Shown here in pieces: positions 4,484-32,150 of a stretch of 32,981 nucleotides of DNA; position 1 is the first letter of the stretch, and every line of letters starts with the position of its first letter. Source of the DNA: Candidatus Gottesmanbacteria bacterium (GTDB lineage Bacteria > Patescibacteriota > Microgenomatia > JACOXO01); assembly GCA_016182365.1 (NCBI GenBank), contig JACOXO010000021.1, forward strand, positions 1 to 32,981, written 5' to 3'. The notes under the pieces are model-generated. The model saw nothing but the letters and a program-made list of their open reading frames with translations. It ran no database searches and was not told the origin of the DNA. The position numbers were made by a program, and so were the translations under genes.

Positions 4484-5602
4484 ATGAAAATTGCAATTGA
4501 TGGTAATGAAGCAAACGCCCCCAAACGGGTAGGCATAGGAGAGTATGCTTTTAATCTCCTTTGTGGACTTGCAAAATACCAGGACAGACACAGTTTTTCT
4601 GTCTTTTTTAAAGATAGTCCTACAGCGGATTTACCCCAACAGACCAATAAATGGAAATATTTTCAGCTCAAACCTTCTTTTTTATGGAGCCAGATTGCTT
4701 TTCCTTATTATCTTATTACACACAAGAATTATGATCTAGTTTTTTCTCCAACTCATTATGGACCAAGACTCAGTCCAATTCCTTCAATTATATCGGTGAT
4801 GGATCTTTCCTATCTTTATTATCCTCAGCTTTTTAAAAAGCAGGATCTTTATAAATTAACTGATTGGACTTCCTACTCTGTAAAGCAAGCAACATATATT
4901 TTTACAATAAGCGAATTTACAAAAAAAGATATCATTAAAAATTACAGGGTAAGTCAGGAAAAAGTTATTGTAACTTATCCTGGTTACAACAATAAAATTT
5001 ACAATATTAATTATACAAATAGCGATGTTGTAAGGATAAAAAAGAAATATTCACTAGATCAATATTTAATCTTTGTGGGTACCATTCAACCGCGTAAAAA
5101 TATTTCCAAGCTTGTAGAAGCTTATAAAATTCTTCTTGGCAAACACCCGCACTTAAAGCTTGTTATTGTAGGTAAAAAAGGTTGGCTATATGAATCCGTA
5201 TTTAATATTTTAGTTCCTTATATAAAAGAGGGAAAAGTACACTATATGGGTTACCTTCCTGATAATGAGATAGTACTTTTGTATCAAGGGGCATTGGCAT
5301 TTGTTTTACCTTCTTTGTATGAAGGTTTTGGTTTAACGGTTGTTGAGGCCATGGCTTCAGGTTGTCCAATTGCTGTATCTAATGTATCAAGTCTTCCGGA
5401 GATTGCCGGTGAAAGCGGGTTCTATTTTAATCCAAACGAGGTATCAGATATTGCCCAAAAAATTGACAAAATACTTGATCTTACAACGTCTCAAAGAGCA
5501 GATGTTATAAGAAATGGGATACTTAAAGCAAGCCAGTATTCTTGGGACAAATGTGCAAGGAAAACAATTGAGGTAATGGAGAAAATTAAGACTAATAATT
5601 AG
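4484..5602 (+). CDS. Glycosyltransferase family 4
   Basis: MKIAIDGNEANAPKRVGIGEYAFNLL at ATG 4484; VGTIQPRKNISKLVEAY, SLYEGFGLTVVEAMASG; ORF track start at 4397 overextends into the previous gene. Confidence 0.9.
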   Translation: MKIAIDGNEANAPKRVGIGEYAFNLLCGLAKYQDRHSFSVFFKDSPTADLPQQTNKWKYFQLKPSFLWSQIAFPYYLITHKNYDLVFSPTHYGPRLSPIPSIISVMDLSYLYYPQLFKKQDLYKLTDWTSYSVKQATYIFTISEFTKKDIIKNYRVSQEKVIVTYPGYNNKIYNINYTNSDVVRIKKKYSLDQYLIFVGTIQPRKNISKLVEAYKILLGKHPHLKLVIVGKKGWLYESVFNILVPYIKEGKVHYMGYLPDNEIVLLYQGALAFVLPSLYEGFGLTVVEAMASGCPIAVSNVSSLPEIAGESGFYFNPNEVSDIAQKIDKILDLTTSQRADVIRNGILKASQYSWDKCARKTIEVMEKIKTNN

Positions 5603-10186: not shown

Positions 10187-11377
10187 ATGAAAATTTTAAT
10201 GCTTACGCCCTATCTTCCCTACCCTTTATTTTCCGGGGGCCAAACCAGGTCATTTAATCTTATTAAAAATTTAGCTAAAAACCATGAGATAAGTTTGTTT
10301 AGTTTTATAAGAAGCAATGACGAAAAAAAATATATTAAATATTTGCGTCCTCATTGTAAGAAGATCCATGTATTTAAAAGAAGACCAGCCTGGTCTCCGA
10401 TTAATATTGGTCTTGCCGGTTTTACTCTTTATCCCTTTTTAGTAGTTATTTATCTTTCAAGAACACTAAGAAATTTTTTAGCAAATGAAATAGCAACAGA
10501 AAAATATGATCTAATTCATGCAGAAACTTTTTATGTCCTTCCAAACATTCCCCCAACCCAAATTCCCACACTTCTAGTTGAGCAAACCATTGAATATCAG
10601 GTTTACCAGCATTTTGTAGAACAGATGAAAATTCCACTTATCAAATATCCTTTAAGATTAGATGTTAAAAAAGTTAAATTTTGGGAAACATATTATTGGC
10701 GGAAAGTAAACCAAGTGGTTGCCGTGTCTGAGGATGATAGAAACAAAATGAGACAATTAATTCCAAATTTGTCTGTTGAAGTTATACCAAATGGTGTTGA
10801 TCCTAAAATGTTTTCTGGAAATAGCATGGTTAGTTCGGCACAAACTCCAACTGTTTTGTATGTTGGAAATTTCAAATGGCTGCAAAACAGAGAAGCAGTT
10901 GAGATTTTGATCGAAGATATCTGGCCTAAAATTAAAAAAGAAATAGCAAATGCAAAATTGTGGGTTGTTGGTAGAAATACCAGCGCGCTTAATTATTTAA
11001 AGCAGCCAGATATTATATTTGATGAGAGTGTAGATAATATTAAGGAAGCATATAAAAAAGCTGATATGGTTCTGGCTCCAATTAAAGGTCCAGGTGGTAC
11101 TAGGCTTAAGGTACTTGAGGCTATGGCTTCATCTTGCCCTGTAGTTACTACATCAGTAGGCATTGAGGGGATAGAAGCAGATCCTGGGGTTGACGTCTTA
11201 ATTGGAGATACGAATAATGATTTGGCTAAACTAACGGTCAAGCTTTTAAAAGATGCAAATCTCAGGAAAAAAATAGGCAAAGCCGGGTTTTTGGTAGTTG
11301 AAAAAAGGTATAACTGGGAATCAATTACTAAAAAGATAGAAAAAGTTTACCAAAACGTCCAACATGAAAAAAGATAA
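10187..11377 (+). CDS. Glycosyltransferase family 4 / GT1-like
   Basis: MKILMLTPYLPYPLFSGGQTRSFNLIKNLAK, VIPNGVDPKMF, LYVGNFKWLQNREAVEIL, GGTRLKVLEAMASSCPVVTT. Confidence 0.9.
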   Translation: MKILMLTPYLPYPLFSGGQTRSFNLIKNLAKNHEISLFSFIRSNDEKKYIKYLRPHCKKIHVFKRRPAWSPINIGLAGFTLYPFLVVIYLSRTLRNFLANEIATEKYDLIHAETFYVLPNIPPTQIPTLLVEQTIEYQVYQHFVEQMKIPLIKYPLRLDVKKVKFWETYYWRKVNQVVAVSEDDRNKMRQLIPNLSVEVIPNGVDPKMFSGNSMVSSAQTPTVLYVGNFKWLQNREAVEILIEDIWPKIKKEIANAKLWVVGRNTSALNYLKQPDIIFDESVDNIKEAYKKADMVLAPIKGPGGTRLKVLEAMASSCPVVTTSVGIEGIEADPGVDVLIGDTNNDLAKLTVKLLKDANLRKKIGKAGFLVVEKRYNWESITKKIEKVYQNVQHEKR

Positions 11378-12293
11378 ATTTCTTTCAGTTATTATAGTTA
11401 CCCACAATAACCAGCAGATAATTAAAAATACTTTGAATAAGCTCACTATTTCCTTAGATGCTTTAAACAAACCTTGGGAAATTATTGTTGTTGACAACGC
11501 CTCATCTGATAAAACAATAGAGGTTGTAAAAGAAAATTCCCGACGTTACAGTCGGGATCCCGACCCAAAAGCGTCGGGAAAAAAATTAACTCTTATTCAA
11601 AGTAACCAAAATAGAGGGTATGCTTGGGCAAACAATAGAGGAATAGAAAAGTCACAAGGAAAATACATTCTTCTTTTAAATTCTGATGTTGTTCTTAATG
11701 AAGATTCATTAAAAAAAACTATAGATTTTTTAGATAAGGATCCTAATGTTGGTGTTGTAACTTGTAAAATTTTATTACAAAACGGCAAAATTGATCCTGC
11801 ATGTCATAGAGGATTTCCCACTCCATGGGTGTCCTTAACTTATATGATTGGGCTTGAGAAGTTATTTCCTAATATCAGATTATTCTCCGGCTATCACATG
11901 TGGTATAAGGATATAAATAAAACTCACGAAATTGACAGCTGCTCCGGAGCTTTTTATCTTTTCAGGAGGGAAATTATTGAAAAAGTAGGATTATTGGATG
12001 AGAAATTTTTTATGTATGGAGAAGATCTGGATTTTTCCTACAGAATTAAAAATCACGGTTATAAAATCATTTATTATCCATACTGCTTTGCAGTACATCT
12101 TAAATACCAAAGCGGGTTAAAAAGTACTGACCGCGAAACTCAAAAAAGAACAATTGAAGCCTTCTACCAAGCCATGATCATCTTCTACCAAAAAAACTAT
12201 TCAAATAAATACCCATTTTTTGTAACGGGATTAATTATATTTATGATTGGTCTAATCAAAAATCTAAAACTTCTTATTAGTAGATTTTGGTGA
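11364..12293 (+). CDS. Glycosyltransferase family 2, carrying an in-frame palindromic-element insertion
   Basis: LSVIIVTHNNQQIIKNTLNKL, EIIVVDNASSDKTIEVV, NRGYAWANNRGI, LLLNSDVVL; inserted RRYSRDPDPKASG between VVKENS and KKLTLIQSNQ. Confidence 0.92.
   Translation: MKKDKFLSVIIVTHNNQQIIKNTLNKLTISLDALNKPWEIIVVDNASSDKTIEVVKENSRRYSRDPDPKASGKKLTLIQSNQNRGYAWANNRGIEKSQGKYILLLNSDVVLNEDSLKKTIDFLDKDPNVGVVTCKILLQNGKIDPACHRGFPTPWVSLTYMIGLEKLFPNIRLFSGYHMWYKDINKTHEIDSCSGAFYLFRREIIEKVGLLDEKFFMYGEDLDFSYRIKNHGYKIIYYPYCFAVHLKYQSGLKSTDRETQKRTIEAFYQAMIIFYQKNYSNKYPFFVTGLIIFMIGLIKNLKLLISRFW
11539..11578 (+). repeat. In-frame coding palindromic element, copy 1 (inside GT2 gene)
   Basis: CCCGACG TTACA GTCGGGATCCCGAC CCAAAAG CGTCGGG; two adjacent hairpins; outer arms extend to TTCCCGACG/CGTCGGGAA. 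Confidence 0.9.
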
Positions 12294-19249: not shown

Positions 19250-21193
19250 ATGAAAGACGGATTTGACAAAATTGACATTAAAAGCACCTCTATGAAGAAA
19301 AAAACAAAAAGTCCCGACGCAAAGGTCGGGATCCCGACCCGAAGGCGTCGGGGAAAAATATCTAAATGGTTAATTCCAGTTTTAATCGTTATTTTTATTG
19401 CTCTTGGTTTTACCGGTTTTCAGGTAAGCTCTGTGTACAGACAAGGCAAAAAAACTCAGGCAAGTGCAGAGTTGGCGATTCAGACGATCAGAGACCAGAA
19501 TATTGATGCCGCAAAAGATGCCCTTATAACTACAAAAGAGGACCTAACCAAAACCAGACAATTGTATGCTGGGCTACTTTTACCTAAATATACTCCTATA
19601 GTCAGAAGTTACTATCTGGATGGAGAGCATTTGATGACTGCAGCAGATGCCGGATTAGACGCAGGTATTATTACAACCGAAGCAATTATTCCTTATGCCG
19701 ATCTTTTGGGTCTTAAGGGTGAGAGCAAATTTGTTTCGGGATCGGCGGATGAACGTATTCAAACAGCTGTTCAGACTCTTGATAAATTGACTCCCAAACT
19801 GGGTGATATAGCCGAGAAAATCAAAATAGTTAACCAAAATTTTGATAAAATCAACCCAAATAGGTATCCGGAAAAAATTGGCAATAGAGAGATTAGACCC
19901 AAACTTCTGGCTGCCAAAACTACCATAAATAATCTAAGTGAACTTTTCTTAAATGCAAGACCCCTTCTAGAGAACTTACCTAGCCTTTTGGGTGAACCTA
20001 CCCCAAAAAGATATCTTATTATATTCCAAAATGATAAAGAGCTTCGTCCCACCGGCGGTTTTATAACTGCCTATGCAATTTTCAAACTGGAAAAGGGAAA
20101 ACCTATTGTAGAAACTGCAGATGATATCTATAAACTTGATGAAAAAAATACGGCAAAAATATCACCTCCGGAGCAGTTTATTAAAAATCTGAAAGTTTTC
20201 AATCTCAATCTTAGAGATAGCAACTTCGATCCAGACTTTAAAGACTCGATGCAGAGATTTGAAGAAATGTATAATAATATTCCCGGAACAACTCCTGTTG
20301 ATGGTGTAATTGCTGTTGACACTCATGTGTTAGTTGAGGCCATGAAGATTTTAGGACCAATTCCTGCATATGGAACCAATTTTACAGTGGATATTGATCC
20401 TAGATGCGATTGTCCTCAGGTTATTTATGAGTTGGAAGATTATGCTGGAAGAAGAGTGGCATATATAAGGGAGGACAGGAAAGATATTATCGGGGTTCTT
20501 TTGTACCAGATTATGCAGAAAGCCTTGGGTGTTTCTCCTTCTCAATATTGGGGCAAGCTTTTCCAGATGGTTTTATCTGAGTTTGAGCAAAAACATATCC
20601 TTGTTTATCTTACTAACACTGACGCTCAGCAAAGTTTAGAGGCATTAAATTTTGCAGGAAGAATGATTGATTCACCTCAAGAAGACTATCTTCATATTAA
20701 TGATGCCAACTTAGGAGGAGCCAAATCCAATCTTTTTGTCAGACAGTCAGTTAAACAGGATTTTGAAAAACAGGGTGACGGGTCAATTGTCAAAACAGTA
20801 ACAATATCGTATAAAAATCCAGAACCTGGTTCCCCTGGTTGTAATCTAGAAGCAGGAGGACTTTGTCTAAATGGTCCAATGAAAAACTGGTTGAGAGTTT
20901 ACGTACCTAAAGGATCAGAACTAATAGATTTCGAAGGTTCTAGCGATGCACCAATTGTTTCGGAAGCTTATAACAGGACATTATTTGAAGGTTTGACAAC
21001 AGTTAATCCTGAAGGAGTTGCTACTGTAACAATTAAGTATAAATTACCTCAATCAGTTAGTGGTGATAAATTTTCAGAATATATCCAAAAACAGCCAGGT
21101 ACAGACAATAATGAATACATAACTCTTGTTAATGGAAATGAAGTTGACATATTTAACCTAACCAAAGATACTATAAAAGAGATTAAATTATAA
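19250..21193 (+). CDS. DUF4012 family membrane protein, with palindromic-element insertion in its cytoplasmic N-terminus
   Basis: Single TM near N-terminus; KRYLIIFQNDKELRPTGGFITAYAIFKLEKGK is characteristic of DUF4012; inserted PDAKVGIPTRRRRG before the TM. Confidence 0.85.
   Translation: MKDGFDKIDIKSTSMKKKTKSPDAKVGIPTRRRRGKISKWLIPVLIVIFIALGFTGFQVSSVYRQGKKTQASAELAIQTIRDQNIDAAKDALITTKEDLTKTRQLYAGLLLPKYTPIVRSYYLDGEHLMTAADAGLDAGIITTEAIIPYADLLGLKGESKFVSGSADERIQTAVQTLDKLTPKLGDIAEKIKIVNQNFDKINPNRYPEKIGNREIRPKLLAAKTTINNLSELFLNARPLLENLPSLLGEPTPKRYLIIFQNDKELRPTGGFITAYAIFKLEKGKPIVETADDIYKLDEKNTAKISPPEQFIKNLKVFNLNLRDSNFDPDFKDSMQRFEEMYNNIPGTTPVDGVIAVDTHVLVEAMKILGPIPAYGTNFTVDIDPRCDCPQVIYELEDYAGRRVAYIREDRKDIIGVLLYQIMQKALGVSPSQYWGKLFQMVLSEFEQKHILVYLTNTDAQQSLEALNFAGRMIDSPQEDYLHINDANLGGAKSNLFVRQSVKQDFEKQGDGSIVKTVTISYKNPEPGSPGCNLEAGGLCLNGPMKNWLRVYVPKGSELIDFEGSSDAPIVSEAYNRTLFEGLTTVNPEGVATVTIKYKLPQSVSGDKFSEYIQKQPGTDNNEYITLVNGNEVDIFNLTKDTIKEIKL
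19313..19352 (+). repeat. In-frame coding palindromic element, copy 2 (inside DUF4012 gene)
   Basis: CCCGACG CAAAG GTCGGGATCCCGAC CCGAAGG CGTCGGG; 34/40 identical to copy 1, differences confined to spacers. Confidence 0.9.
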
Positions 21194-29227: not shown

Positions 29228-30904
29228 ATGTGGCGTTCTCGTCTAATATTCACTTTTTTCCTACTCTGGTTTTTTTTAGTTATTGGAAAACTTTTCTACT
29301 GGCAGGTTCTTTCATATAATAAATTAGCTGCCGCTGCCGATAAACAACATTTCATTAGTTTCACCTTACCTGCATTGCGCGGCGATATTTTGGCTTCAGA
29401 TGGTTCGATTTTAGTCACTAACCAGCCAGCGTATTTAGTTTGGGCTGAACCGCCAAAAGTAGAAGGTAAAAAAAGACTAACCGATGTTCTATCCAATGTC
29501 CTTAAAATGCCTCAAGCATCGGTTTCTGCGATTTTAGATACCTCTAATGCTTTGTGGGTTCCGTTGGCAAGGCGTATTGATGAAGACACTGTAAATACAC
29601 TTAAGCAGCAAAACCTGGCAGGTATAGGTTTTGAGAAAATGGGCAAAAGATATTATCCGGAAGCCTCAATGAGCGCCCAAATATTGGGTTTTGTCGCTTC
29701 AGATAATATTGGAGATGACAAAGGATACTTTGGAATAGAAGGATCATATGATAAAGAACTAAGAGGTAGAGATGGTTTTTTGCGGCAGGAGAAAGACCCT
29801 TATGGGTTTCCAATCGTTATTGGAGAGGGAGAAAGAATTGATCCTGAAAATGGTAGAAATGTGGTTTTGCACATTGATAAAATTGTCCAAAATTCTATTG
29901 AAACCAAGCTTAAAAAAGGGATTGAAAAATTTGGCGCTAAAGCGGGAAGCATTATAGTTATGGAGCCAGCAACTGGTGCTATTCTGGGAATGGCTTCATA
30001 TCCATCATACGATCAGTCTTCATTTTCAGAATATGATAAAGAGTTGTATAAAAACCCTACCGTTGCTACAAGTTATGAGCCGGGATCAACATTTAAATCC
30101 ATTGTAATGGCTTCAGCTATATCAGAAAAAGTAGTAACACCGCAAACAGAAACAGACGAGGAAGGTCCAGTTAAAATATCAGGTTATGAAATCCGCACTT
30201 GGGATAATAAATACAGAGGTAGAATTAATATGACTGAAATTCTACAGCATTCATCAAATGTTGGTATGGTATTTGTGGGAGAAAAATTAGGAAAAGATAA
30301 ATTTTTAGATTATCTTGAAAAGTTCGGATTTGGGCAATCAACCGGAATTGATCTTTCCGATGAACAAGTACCTAATTTGAGACCAGTTAACCAGTGGAGA
30401 GAAATTGATCTAGCGACAGCAACATTTGGTCAAGGCATTGCAGTCACGCCAATACAAATGATCAGAGCTGTTGCTGTACTTGCAAATGGAGGGAAACTTG
30501 TTGAACCACATATTGTATCCAAAATTATTGATAGTTTTGGCAATGAGACAGAGATCAAGCCCAAAGTAATTAGACAGGTAATTACTCCACATGGTTCTAA
30601 GGTAATTACAGAAATGTTAGTTCAAAGTGTTATTGGTGGGGAGGCGCATTATAAAATACCTAAGGGTTATAGAATTGCTGGTAAAACAGGAACCGCACAA
30701 ATTCCGGTTGCAGGTCACTACGATGAACAAAAAACAATAGCGTCTTTTGTAGGATATGCTCCAGCAGATAATCCTAAGTTTGTAATGTTGGTTACTATAA
30801 CCGAGCCGACCAGCTCTCCTTGGGGATCTGAAACAGCCGCCCCCCTTTTTATGGATATAACAAGCGATTTGCTTGCCTATTACAAAATATTCCCAAGCCC
30901 TTAA
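29228..30904 (+). CDS. ftsI: Class B penicillin-binding protein (peptidoglycan transpeptidase FtsI)
   Basis: N-terminal TM, ATSYEPGSTFKS (SxxK), SSN (HSSNVGMVF), KTGTAQ. Confidence 0.95.
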   Translation: MWRSRLIFTFFLLWFFLVIGKLFYWQVLSYNKLAAAADKQHFISFTLPALRGDILASDGSILVTNQPAYLVWAEPPKVEGKKRLTDVLSNVLKMPQASVSAILDTSNALWVPLARRIDEDTVNTLKQQNLAGIGFEKMGKRYYPEASMSAQILGFVASDNIGDDKGYFGIEGSYDKELRGRDGFLRQEKDPYGFPIVIGEGERIDPENGRNVVLHIDKIVQNSIETKLKKGIEKFGAKAGSIIVMEPATGAILGMASYPSYDQSSFSEYDKELYKNPTVATSYEPGSTFKSIVMASAISEKVVTPQTETDEEGPVKISGYEIRTWDNKYRGRINMTEILQHSSNVGMVFVGEKLGKDKFLDYLEKFGFGQSTGIDLSDEQVPNLRPVNQWREIDLATATFGQGIAVTPIQMIRAVAVLANGGKLVEPHIVSKIIDSFGNETEIKPKVIRQVITPHGSKVITEMLVQSVIGGEAHYKIPKGYRIAGKTGTAQIPVAGHYDEQKTIASFVGYAPADNPKFVMLVTITEPTSSPWGSETAAPLFMDITSDLLAYYKIFPSP

Positions 30905-30935
30905 CGTGATAGATATAAAATGGTATAATTCACCA

Positions 30936-32150
30936 ATGGAGCATATTAAAGCTCTATATCACTACATAGTTGCAGTAATTGCTGTTTTAGTTTACGGCTA
31001 TCCGGCAAAAGACTTAACAGTAATTGCCGTCACGGGTACTTCAGGTAAAACGACAACTTCCCATCTTATTTACTCAATCCTCAAAAAATCAGGCAGGAAA
31101 GCTGCCTTAATATCGTCAGTTGAGGCTATAATTGGAGGAAAAGTTTCCGATACTGGTTTTCATGTTACTACACCAAGCCCCTTTGCCTTGCAAAAATTCT
31201 TAAAAACAGCGGTTTCTAAAGGAGATAAATATGTTGTTGTTGAGGCTAGTTCTCATGGAATTGCCCAATATAGAATGCTGGGAACCAATGTAAAAATTGC
31301 GGTTTTGACTAATATTGCCCATGAGCACTTAGATTGGCATGGGACTTTTGAAGCTTATTCCCAGGCTAAGCTTTCCCTCATTCAAAAAGCTCAAGTATCA
31401 GTTGTCAATAAAGATGACGAGTCATACAAGTTAGTTGAAAAATTAGGTAACAAAAAAGCAGTGATATTAACATATAGCTTAAAAGATCCTGACGCTGATT
31501 TTATACCTGAAAATACAGTATCCGAAGTCACTTTACCAGGTGAATATAACAGGCAGAATGCAATTGCAGCAAGCAGCGTATGTCAACTTTTAGGAGTAGA
31601 ACTTGAAGATATTAAAAAAGCTTTTAATAGCTTTAATGGAGTACAGGGCAGATTTGAGGAAATAAAAAATAAAAGAGGATTTAGAATTATTATTGATTTT
31701 GCTCATAAACCCAATGCTTTTGAAGCTTTATTATCAACACTTAAAAAAAATGCCGACGTTTCAGTCGGCACCCCGACCCAAAGGCGTCGGGGGAGATTAA
31801 TTATTATGTTTGGATCTGCAGGTGAACGGGATAAAGGTAAAAGATCAATGATGGGCAAAATTGCTGCAAAATACGCAGATATTTGTGTACTGACCGCAGA
31901 AGATCCCAGAAGCGAAGATGTTAACAGGATTATAAATGAGATATCCCAAGGTACAAAAGGTAGTGAAGCTCAGGTTATAAGAATTGCAGACCGGGCCTTA
32001 GCAATAAATACAGTAATAAATAAACTTGCCAAAAAAGGTGATATAGTTGCTTTTTTGGGTAAGGGTCATGAAAAATCAATGTGTTTCGGTTCTAAAGAAT
32101 ATCCTTGGAGCGAACATGAACAAATTAATAAAGCATTGGCAAAGAGATAA
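30936..32150 (+). CDS. murE: Mur ligase, MurE-like (UDP-MurNAc-tripeptide synthetase), short N-terminus, carrying a palindromic-element insertion
   Basis: VIAVTGTSGKTTTSHLIY, VVEASSHGIAQYR, TNIAHEHLDWHGTFEAYSQAK, GVQGRFEEI, DFAHKPNAFEALL, AEDPRSEDVNRI; ATG at 30936; inserted ADVSVGTPTQRRRG. Confidence 0.9.
   Translation: MEHIKALYHYIVAVIAVLVYGYPAKDLTVIAVTGTSGKTTTSHLIYSILKKSGRKAALISSVEAIIGGKVSDTGFHVTTPSPFALQKFLKTAVSKGDKYVVVEASSHGIAQYRMLGTNVKIAVLTNIAHEHLDWHGTFEAYSQAKLSLIQKAQVSVVNKDDESYKLVEKLGNKKAVILTYSLKDPDADFIPENTVSEVTLPGEYNRQNAIAASSVCQLLGVELEDIKKAFNSFNGVQGRFEEIKNKRGFRIIIDFAHKPNAFEALLSTLKKNADVSVGTPTQRRRGRLIIMFGSAGERDKGKRSMMGKIAAKYADICVLTAEDPRSEDVNRIINEISQGTKGSEAQVIRIADRALAINTVINKLAKKGDIVAFLGKGHEKSMCFGSKEYPWSEHEQINKALAKR
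31752..31791 (+). repeat. In-frame coding palindromic element, copy 3 (inside murE)
   Basis: GCCGACG TTTCA GTCGGCACCCCGAC CCAAAGG CGTCGGG; 35/40 identical to copy 1; first stem changed to GCCGAC/GTCGGC with pairing preserved. Confidence 0.9.

Follow-up and report, generated by a model that had tools for sequence, protein, structure and literature searches.

How does the same short DNA sequence come to lie inside several different genes of one bacterium, read in more than one frame, with each gene left open? The 32,981-nt stretch of DNA analyzed here (hereafter, the window) raises this question through a 42-nt element at 11538-11579. The preliminary description had reported three copies of it, and all three are indeed present, with pairwise identities of 33 to 36 of 42 positions; the repetition is beyond chance, given that shuffled sequence yielded no matches to the element. 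The copies, the parts of copy 1 and the host genes are as follows.

11364..12293, + strand: host gene 1, glycosyltransferase family 2 (GT2; PF00535), with the element within the domain
11538..11579, + strand: copy 1, 42-nt hairpin-pair element inside the GT2 gene, read SRRYSRDPDPKASG
11538..11557, + strand: hairpin 1 of copy 1, TCCCGAC/GTCGGGA, with the conserved unpaired G at 11545
11558..11579, + strand: hairpin 2 of copy 1, inverted relative to hairpin 1, with the conserved unpaired C at 11572
19250..21193, + strand: host gene 2, DUF4012 protein (PF13196)
19312..19353, + strand: copy 2, inside the DUF4012 gene, in the N-terminal tail ahead of a predicted membrane helix (called by eye from the sequence), read PDAKVGIPTRRRRG
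30873..32150, + strand: host gene 3, MurE-type Mur ligase (PF08245, PF02875)
31751..31792, + strand: copy 3, inside murE, in the Mur ligase C domain, read ADVSVGTPTQRRRG (inserted peptide in MurE, for example, NADVSVGTPTQR)

The peptides originally given for the host frames, namely SRRYSRDPDPKASG in the GT2 gene and the products of another frame in the DUF4012 gene and murE, are correct, and all three ORFs stay open once the 42 nt are removed and the flanks are joined. No Rfam family matched above the gathering score anywhere in the window.

Structure and covariation of the hairpin pair

Copy 1 folds into two adjacent hairpins (z of -4.6 as DNA and -5.3 as RNA), each with a GC-rich stem of 7 bp and one further pair beyond a bulge. 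Each hairpin contains one unpaired base at a fixed place; in hairpin 1 it is a G in the 5' arm, in hairpin 2 a C in the 3' arm. Therefore, the second hairpin is the first one inverted, and the element is a head-to-head hairpin pair. Beyond the unpaired base, a co-varying pair is present in each hairpin. In an alignment of 33 sequences from Patescibacteria, there are 84 two-sided compensatory cells compared to 22 in shuffles, and the covariation score is 0.40 compared to 0.11 for shuffled sequences and at most 0.09 for slid-partner controls. Because the search pattern prescribed both the CCGAC and GTCGG cores and the unpaired G and C next to them, the invariance and identity of these bases carry no evidence; the six base pairs outside the pattern vary on both sides, with 98% of the cells paired. 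Thus, the stems are maintained through compensatory changes.

Copies in the source genome and the lack of stop codons

The source genome (1.04 Mb, 92% complete) probably belongs to Microgenomatia: its SecA shares 66% identity with the SecA of a Gottesmanbacteria genome and 52-61% with the SecA proteins of further named Patescibacteria compared. It contains the hairpin pattern in 30 places, compared to none for a reversed-pattern control, and a covariance model delineates about 18 dimers, of which 13 lie in or touch an ORF by ORF inspection (10 under the stricter criterion applied to the catalogue described below). The hosts are the GT2, DUF4012 and MurE proteins, a transglycosylase-transpeptidase PBP, SecA, an O-antigen ligase/TPR protein, phosphoribosyltransferase, Trp-repressor-like, beta-lactamase-like and integrase-like proteins, with copies at the C terminus of L17 and the N terminus of a signal peptidase, plus one ORF without a Pfam match. 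The 12-nt flanks on each side of ten genic copies are A-rich on the coding strand (55% compared to 34%). The reading in two frames described previously holds within the window; genome-wide, all three frames are in use among the genic copies. The count of orientations, also suggested originally, gave 11 of 13 genic copies in the same sense (p = 0.02); this bias is weak, since the dimer is nearly symmetric and its orientation was assigned by model score. The claim that the conserved unit is a DNA element rather than a peptide is borne out by the use of all three frames, the co-varying stems and the existence of intergenic copies.

As first described, the three window copies contain no stop codon in any forward frame, and on the opposite strand, a stop occurs in one frame in copies 1 and 3 and in no frame in copy 2. 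It had been proposed that such a sequence is suited to insertion into ORFs. We found no support for this view: the absence of stops reflects the composition of the GC-rich stems, and intergenic copies do contain stops. The comparison with shuffled sequences that had been put forward as a check showed no excess over chance, with 25, 43 and 39% of the mononucleotide shuffles and 47, 100 and 85% of the dinucleotide shuffles also free of stops in three frames. The lack of stops is therefore unremarkable, because shuffles of the same composition match it 25 to 100% of the time; among random 42-mers of the AT-rich window, 5% are stop-free in three frames. In the source genome, 9 of the 13 genic copies but none of the 5 intergenic ones are stop-free (p = 0.03), a comparison of few and partly decayed copies. 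Not all other copies share the stop-free character: several genic ones carry a stop in a forward frame, although never in the host frame (L013, L018, L023 and L043). Overall, being stop-free in all forward frames is mostly a matter of base composition and survivorship.

Distribution in Patescibacteria and length of genic copies

A scan of 84,980 species with the exact pattern yielded at least 118 stretches, and most of the matches listed carry Patescibacteria titles, including Nomura-, Taylor-, Kaiser-, Adler-, Yanofsky-, Doudna-, Kerfeld-, Uhr-, Berkel- and Gottesmanbacteria, among others; reversed-pattern controls gave no matches. In the window's own class, the covariance model matched, mostly weakly, in only 12 of 59 genomes, including the source genome. 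Pattern matches in Actinobacterial, Nocardioides, Terrimonas and Hymenobacter sequences were excluded as likely coincidences or other repeats. Spread by viruses was considered and rejected: only three viral contigs match the pattern, none of them clearly of the element's family.

We assembled a catalogue of 123 copies, counting as genic any copy that has 10 codons on each side inside an ORF of 150 aa or more. By this rule, 27 copies (22%) are genic, whereas random positions drawn from these loci are genic 67% of the time; the element is thus depleted in genes phylum-wide, yet a substantial minority of the copies are genic. The genic share is higher in the source genome (10 of 18 compared to 27 of 123, p = 0.007), with modest counts that come from different searches. 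The frames of 26 genic copies in the catalogue are divided 11, 8 and 7, and at least 13 copies lie inside Pfam domains of their hosts, among them MnmA, FBA, a PilB-type ATPase, L3, LysRS, PheS, Pth and DnaG.

The length of the element differs between genic and other copies. It is a multiple of three in 21 of the 27 genic copies but in only 29 of the 96 non-genic ones (p = 1.3e-5); typical lengths among the genic copies are 39, 42 and 45 nt, whereas 40 nt is the commonest length of the intergenic ones, only 30% of which are divisible by three. Six genic copies, at least one of them probably in a spurious ORF, deviate from this rule, so boundaries or flanking indels vary. This length filtering is the clearest sign of coding compatibility, as selection after insertion, which accounts for the frame-compatible lengths together with the lack of in-frame stops. 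In one locus (L177:4561-4598 and 4637-4674), two copies of the element lie within a single ORF, 76 bases apart.

Insertion relative to homologous proteins

At the site of copy 3, MurE contains 14 residues compared to 3 to 8 in 24 homologues of the same class, so that the copy adds about 6 to 11 residues, and MurE chains in the PDB have a gap at this place. SecA contains 14 residues at the respective site, compared to 0 to 5 in 24 of 26 homologues. The segment in MurE and SecA is therefore an insertion, as it is missing from the homologues of both proteins. In an AF2 model of MurE (mean pLDDT 88.7), the inserted residues 294-307 are predicted to form a loop between a helix (280-294) and a strand (309-313), with a pLDDT of about 71 to 74 compared to more than 90 for most of the neighbourhood. 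Unrelated long expansions occur in L240 and L247 in the same SecA loop that bears the element in the source genome.

Copies adjacent to tRNA genes

Within 200 nt of a tRNA gene, there are 24 of the 123 catalogue copies compared to about 5 expected, and the tRNA-adjacent placements are 27 upstream and 2 downstream. In 16 cases, joining the flanks of the element gives a stretch of about 20 bases that agrees with the 5' part of the adjacent tRNA (at 15 to 20 of 20 positions), with the cut point in the tRNA-like repeat mostly at TAG^CTCAG or CTCAG^TTGG. In the best cases, identity reaches 20 of 20 with no base lost or duplicated, that is, the junctions are seamless, and no target-site duplication was found at the junctions compared with adjacent tRNA copies. 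Thus, at about 16 loci from Patescibacteria, an intact tRNA gene is directly preceded by an incomplete copy of its 5' end that the element interrupts (for example, L135:3399-3434, L083:2757-2791, L084:6976-7013, L132:1886-1923 and L136:6081-6197); the source genome contains one decayed case (L004). We also considered insertion into functional tRNA genes and rejected it: the joined flanks yield a tRNA across the junction in only 1 of 134 copies, and therefore, the tRNA-flanked copies sit in partial repeats, not in working tRNAs.

An exact upstream copy of tRNA bases 1-10 is found for 9 of 31 tRNA genes with an upstream hairpin, compared to 3 of 58 without one. Among the latter three, one appears to be a tandem tRNA, and in another (the tRNA-Arg of L140), the 5'-end repeat is cut by a related CCGCC/GGCGG hairpin pair, which suggests sister families with other stem sequences.

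A specific scenario for these loci, which we put forward tentatively as one possibility, is that a hairpin pair mobile across Patescibacteria, moved as single-stranded DNA by some mobilizing enzyme, would prefer the D-arm sequence of tRNAs (TAG^CTCAG or CTCAG^TTGG) and leave an interrupted tRNA 5'-end repeat upstream of the intact tRNA gene, with other copies persisting in frame in essential proteins.

Proposed mobilization and alternative explanations

We consider it likely that the element is a short non-autonomous mobile palindrome of the general REP/RPE kind, mostly 39 to 45 nt long and spread through Patescibacteria, whose insertions in genes are filtered by selection and which would be mobilized in trans as single-stranded DNA by a HUH/Y1-type enzyme. 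Under this scheme, the apparently parasitic element would enter new sites without target-site duplication. The insertions that persist in genes would mostly be those of a length divisible by three, free of stops in the host frame and situated in loops, linkers or tails. What is conserved would be the DNA hairpins, and the approximately 13 to 15 added amino acids, differing by frame, would be incidental. The type of enzyme is suggested by a resemblance to the targets of TnpA-REP and to HUH/Y1 substrates, namely in the paired hairpins with their unpaired base, the junctions free of duplication and the YAR^YTR-like flanks; since no examined Y1 gene bears the element hairpin at its ends, we only infer the identity of the mobilizing enzyme. 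The family of the source genome was represented by this one genome among those compared.

A narrower alternative, which we find rather doubtful, is that the copies are true REP/RAYT members, that is, REPINs moved by the RAYT (TnpA-REP) of the same genomes. The element shares with this system the inverted, head-to-head hairpin pair, a flanking motif of the YAR type, a stem irregularity of the kind recognized by TnpA-REP (PMC8266576) and the lack of target duplication, and Y1 transposases are common in Patescibacteria. However, E. coli TnpA-REP requires a flanking GTAG as well as the stem bulge (PMC8266576), whereas the flanks of the element contain a loose YAR^YTR-like motif, with no conserved GTAG tag at the hairpin foot. 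Furthermore, a linked Y1 transposase had to be rejected as a candidate: a CCGAC hairpin was found at the gene ends in none of the 31 examined Y1 loci (the single Y1 gene of the source genome and 30 loci of the 37 Y1 genes of 7 other genomes), so that across the 8 genomes covered there is no cognate Y1 gene flanked by the element hairpin, and genome G065 carries copies of the element with no detected Y1 gene. The Y1 (RAYT-like) genes of Patescibacteria (L016:1282-1962 and L182-L211) are frequently bordered on both sides by a hairpin pair of their own, such as TTCCACCTTAGAGGTGGAA or ACTTGGACGT..ACGTCCAAGT.

It appears still less probable that the hairpins are primarily RNA signals, such as terminators, mRNA stabilizers or processing sites, maintained for this function, with the genic copies as by-products. 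The RNA fold is very stable, and the commonest loop, CTTCG, resembles the cUUCGg sequence, a stable RNA tetraloop; the depletion in genes and the strong association with tRNA leaders also fit such a role. By contrast, the T-tract that follows the hairpin of an intrinsic terminator is present after only 6 of the 96 non-genic copies, compared to 5% of random sites, the genic copies lie mid-gene in unrelated proteins, and those in the source genome are followed by A-rich sequence. A role for the encoded peptide itself, as a functional module under selection in its hosts, draws on the in-frame occurrence in many genes and on the basic peptides ahead of membrane helices in the DUF4012, PBP and beta-lactamase-like proteins, but is highly improbable in view of the three frames with their unrelated peptides, the base-pair covariation at the DNA or RNA level, and the homologues without the segment.

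Relationship to known repeats

The mobile palindrome that we favour has its closest counterparts among in-frame palindromic inserts known in Rickettsia, the RPEs (Ogata 2000, 2002, 2005), with counterparts in Wolbachia, which are likewise palindromic and tolerated, and lie in frame in numerous protein genes, some of them conserved, as well as in intergenic regions and RNA genes (PMC2229807). In contrast to the RPEs of 105-146 bp (PMC2229807), the element is about 39-45 nt long, consists of two hairpins and belongs to another phylum; RPEs meet tmRNA or RNase P RNA, whereas the element meets tRNA 5' repeats. Intragenic REPs are also known elsewhere, and, in the families treated by Di Nocera 2013 (GTAG and CGTC), short hairpins in head-to-head dimers lie in some ORFs, including repair and tRNA synthetase genes; RPE-4 and RPE-6 are equated there with CGTC REPs, which, like the element, are described without a dedicated transposase (PMC3733652). 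The REP stems and terminal tags given in that source do not match the element, and Patescibacteria are not among the phyla it names (PMC3733652). In particular, CGTC REP families 1-4, as presented there, have a terminal unpaired CGTC and a stem of 8-9 bp starting with AT pairs, whereas in the element, CGTC lies within the 3' arm of a GC-rich stem of 7 bp plus one. The enterobacterial MITEs ERIC/RU-1, RU-2 and RU-3 are also small non-autonomous repeats fused in frame in genes (PMC2229807), although they are about 100-200 bp long, with terminal inverted repeats and, often, target duplications. Target-site duplication is expected of a classical MITE as well, in contrast to the seamless junctions of the element relative to adjacent tRNA copies.

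In general terms, the element is a protein-coding palindromic element: it lies in frame in unrelated conserved proteins, the host genes remain open, and their homologues lack the insert. We found no description of such an element for Patescibacteria in the literature searched, which is not proof of absence; until now, most descriptions of in-frame palindromic inserts concerned Rickettsiales and certain REP-rich bacteria. The copies in SecA, MurE, L3, DnaG, PheS and LysRS show that such elements can reside in essential proteins even where the genome is strongly reduced and dense in genes. The element would explain odd insertions of 13-15 residues in Patescibacteria proteins and would mark insertion-tolerant protein sites, and the tRNA-adjacent copies, as natural pairs of empty and filled sites, define the ends of the element and make the transposition mechanism testable.

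Two other arrangements involve longer repeats. In Taylorbacteria RIFCSPLOWO2_12_FULL_43_20 (L115 and others), 56 copies lie inside a longer shared module in which the hairpin pair is bounded by ATTCGTATNCATCC and AGTCGTATATTCGTAT. At L007:50-110, a single hairpin is located within a GTCATCTTGAGCGA...GTCGAAGGATCT repeat, which we take to resemble a widespread bacterial repeat.
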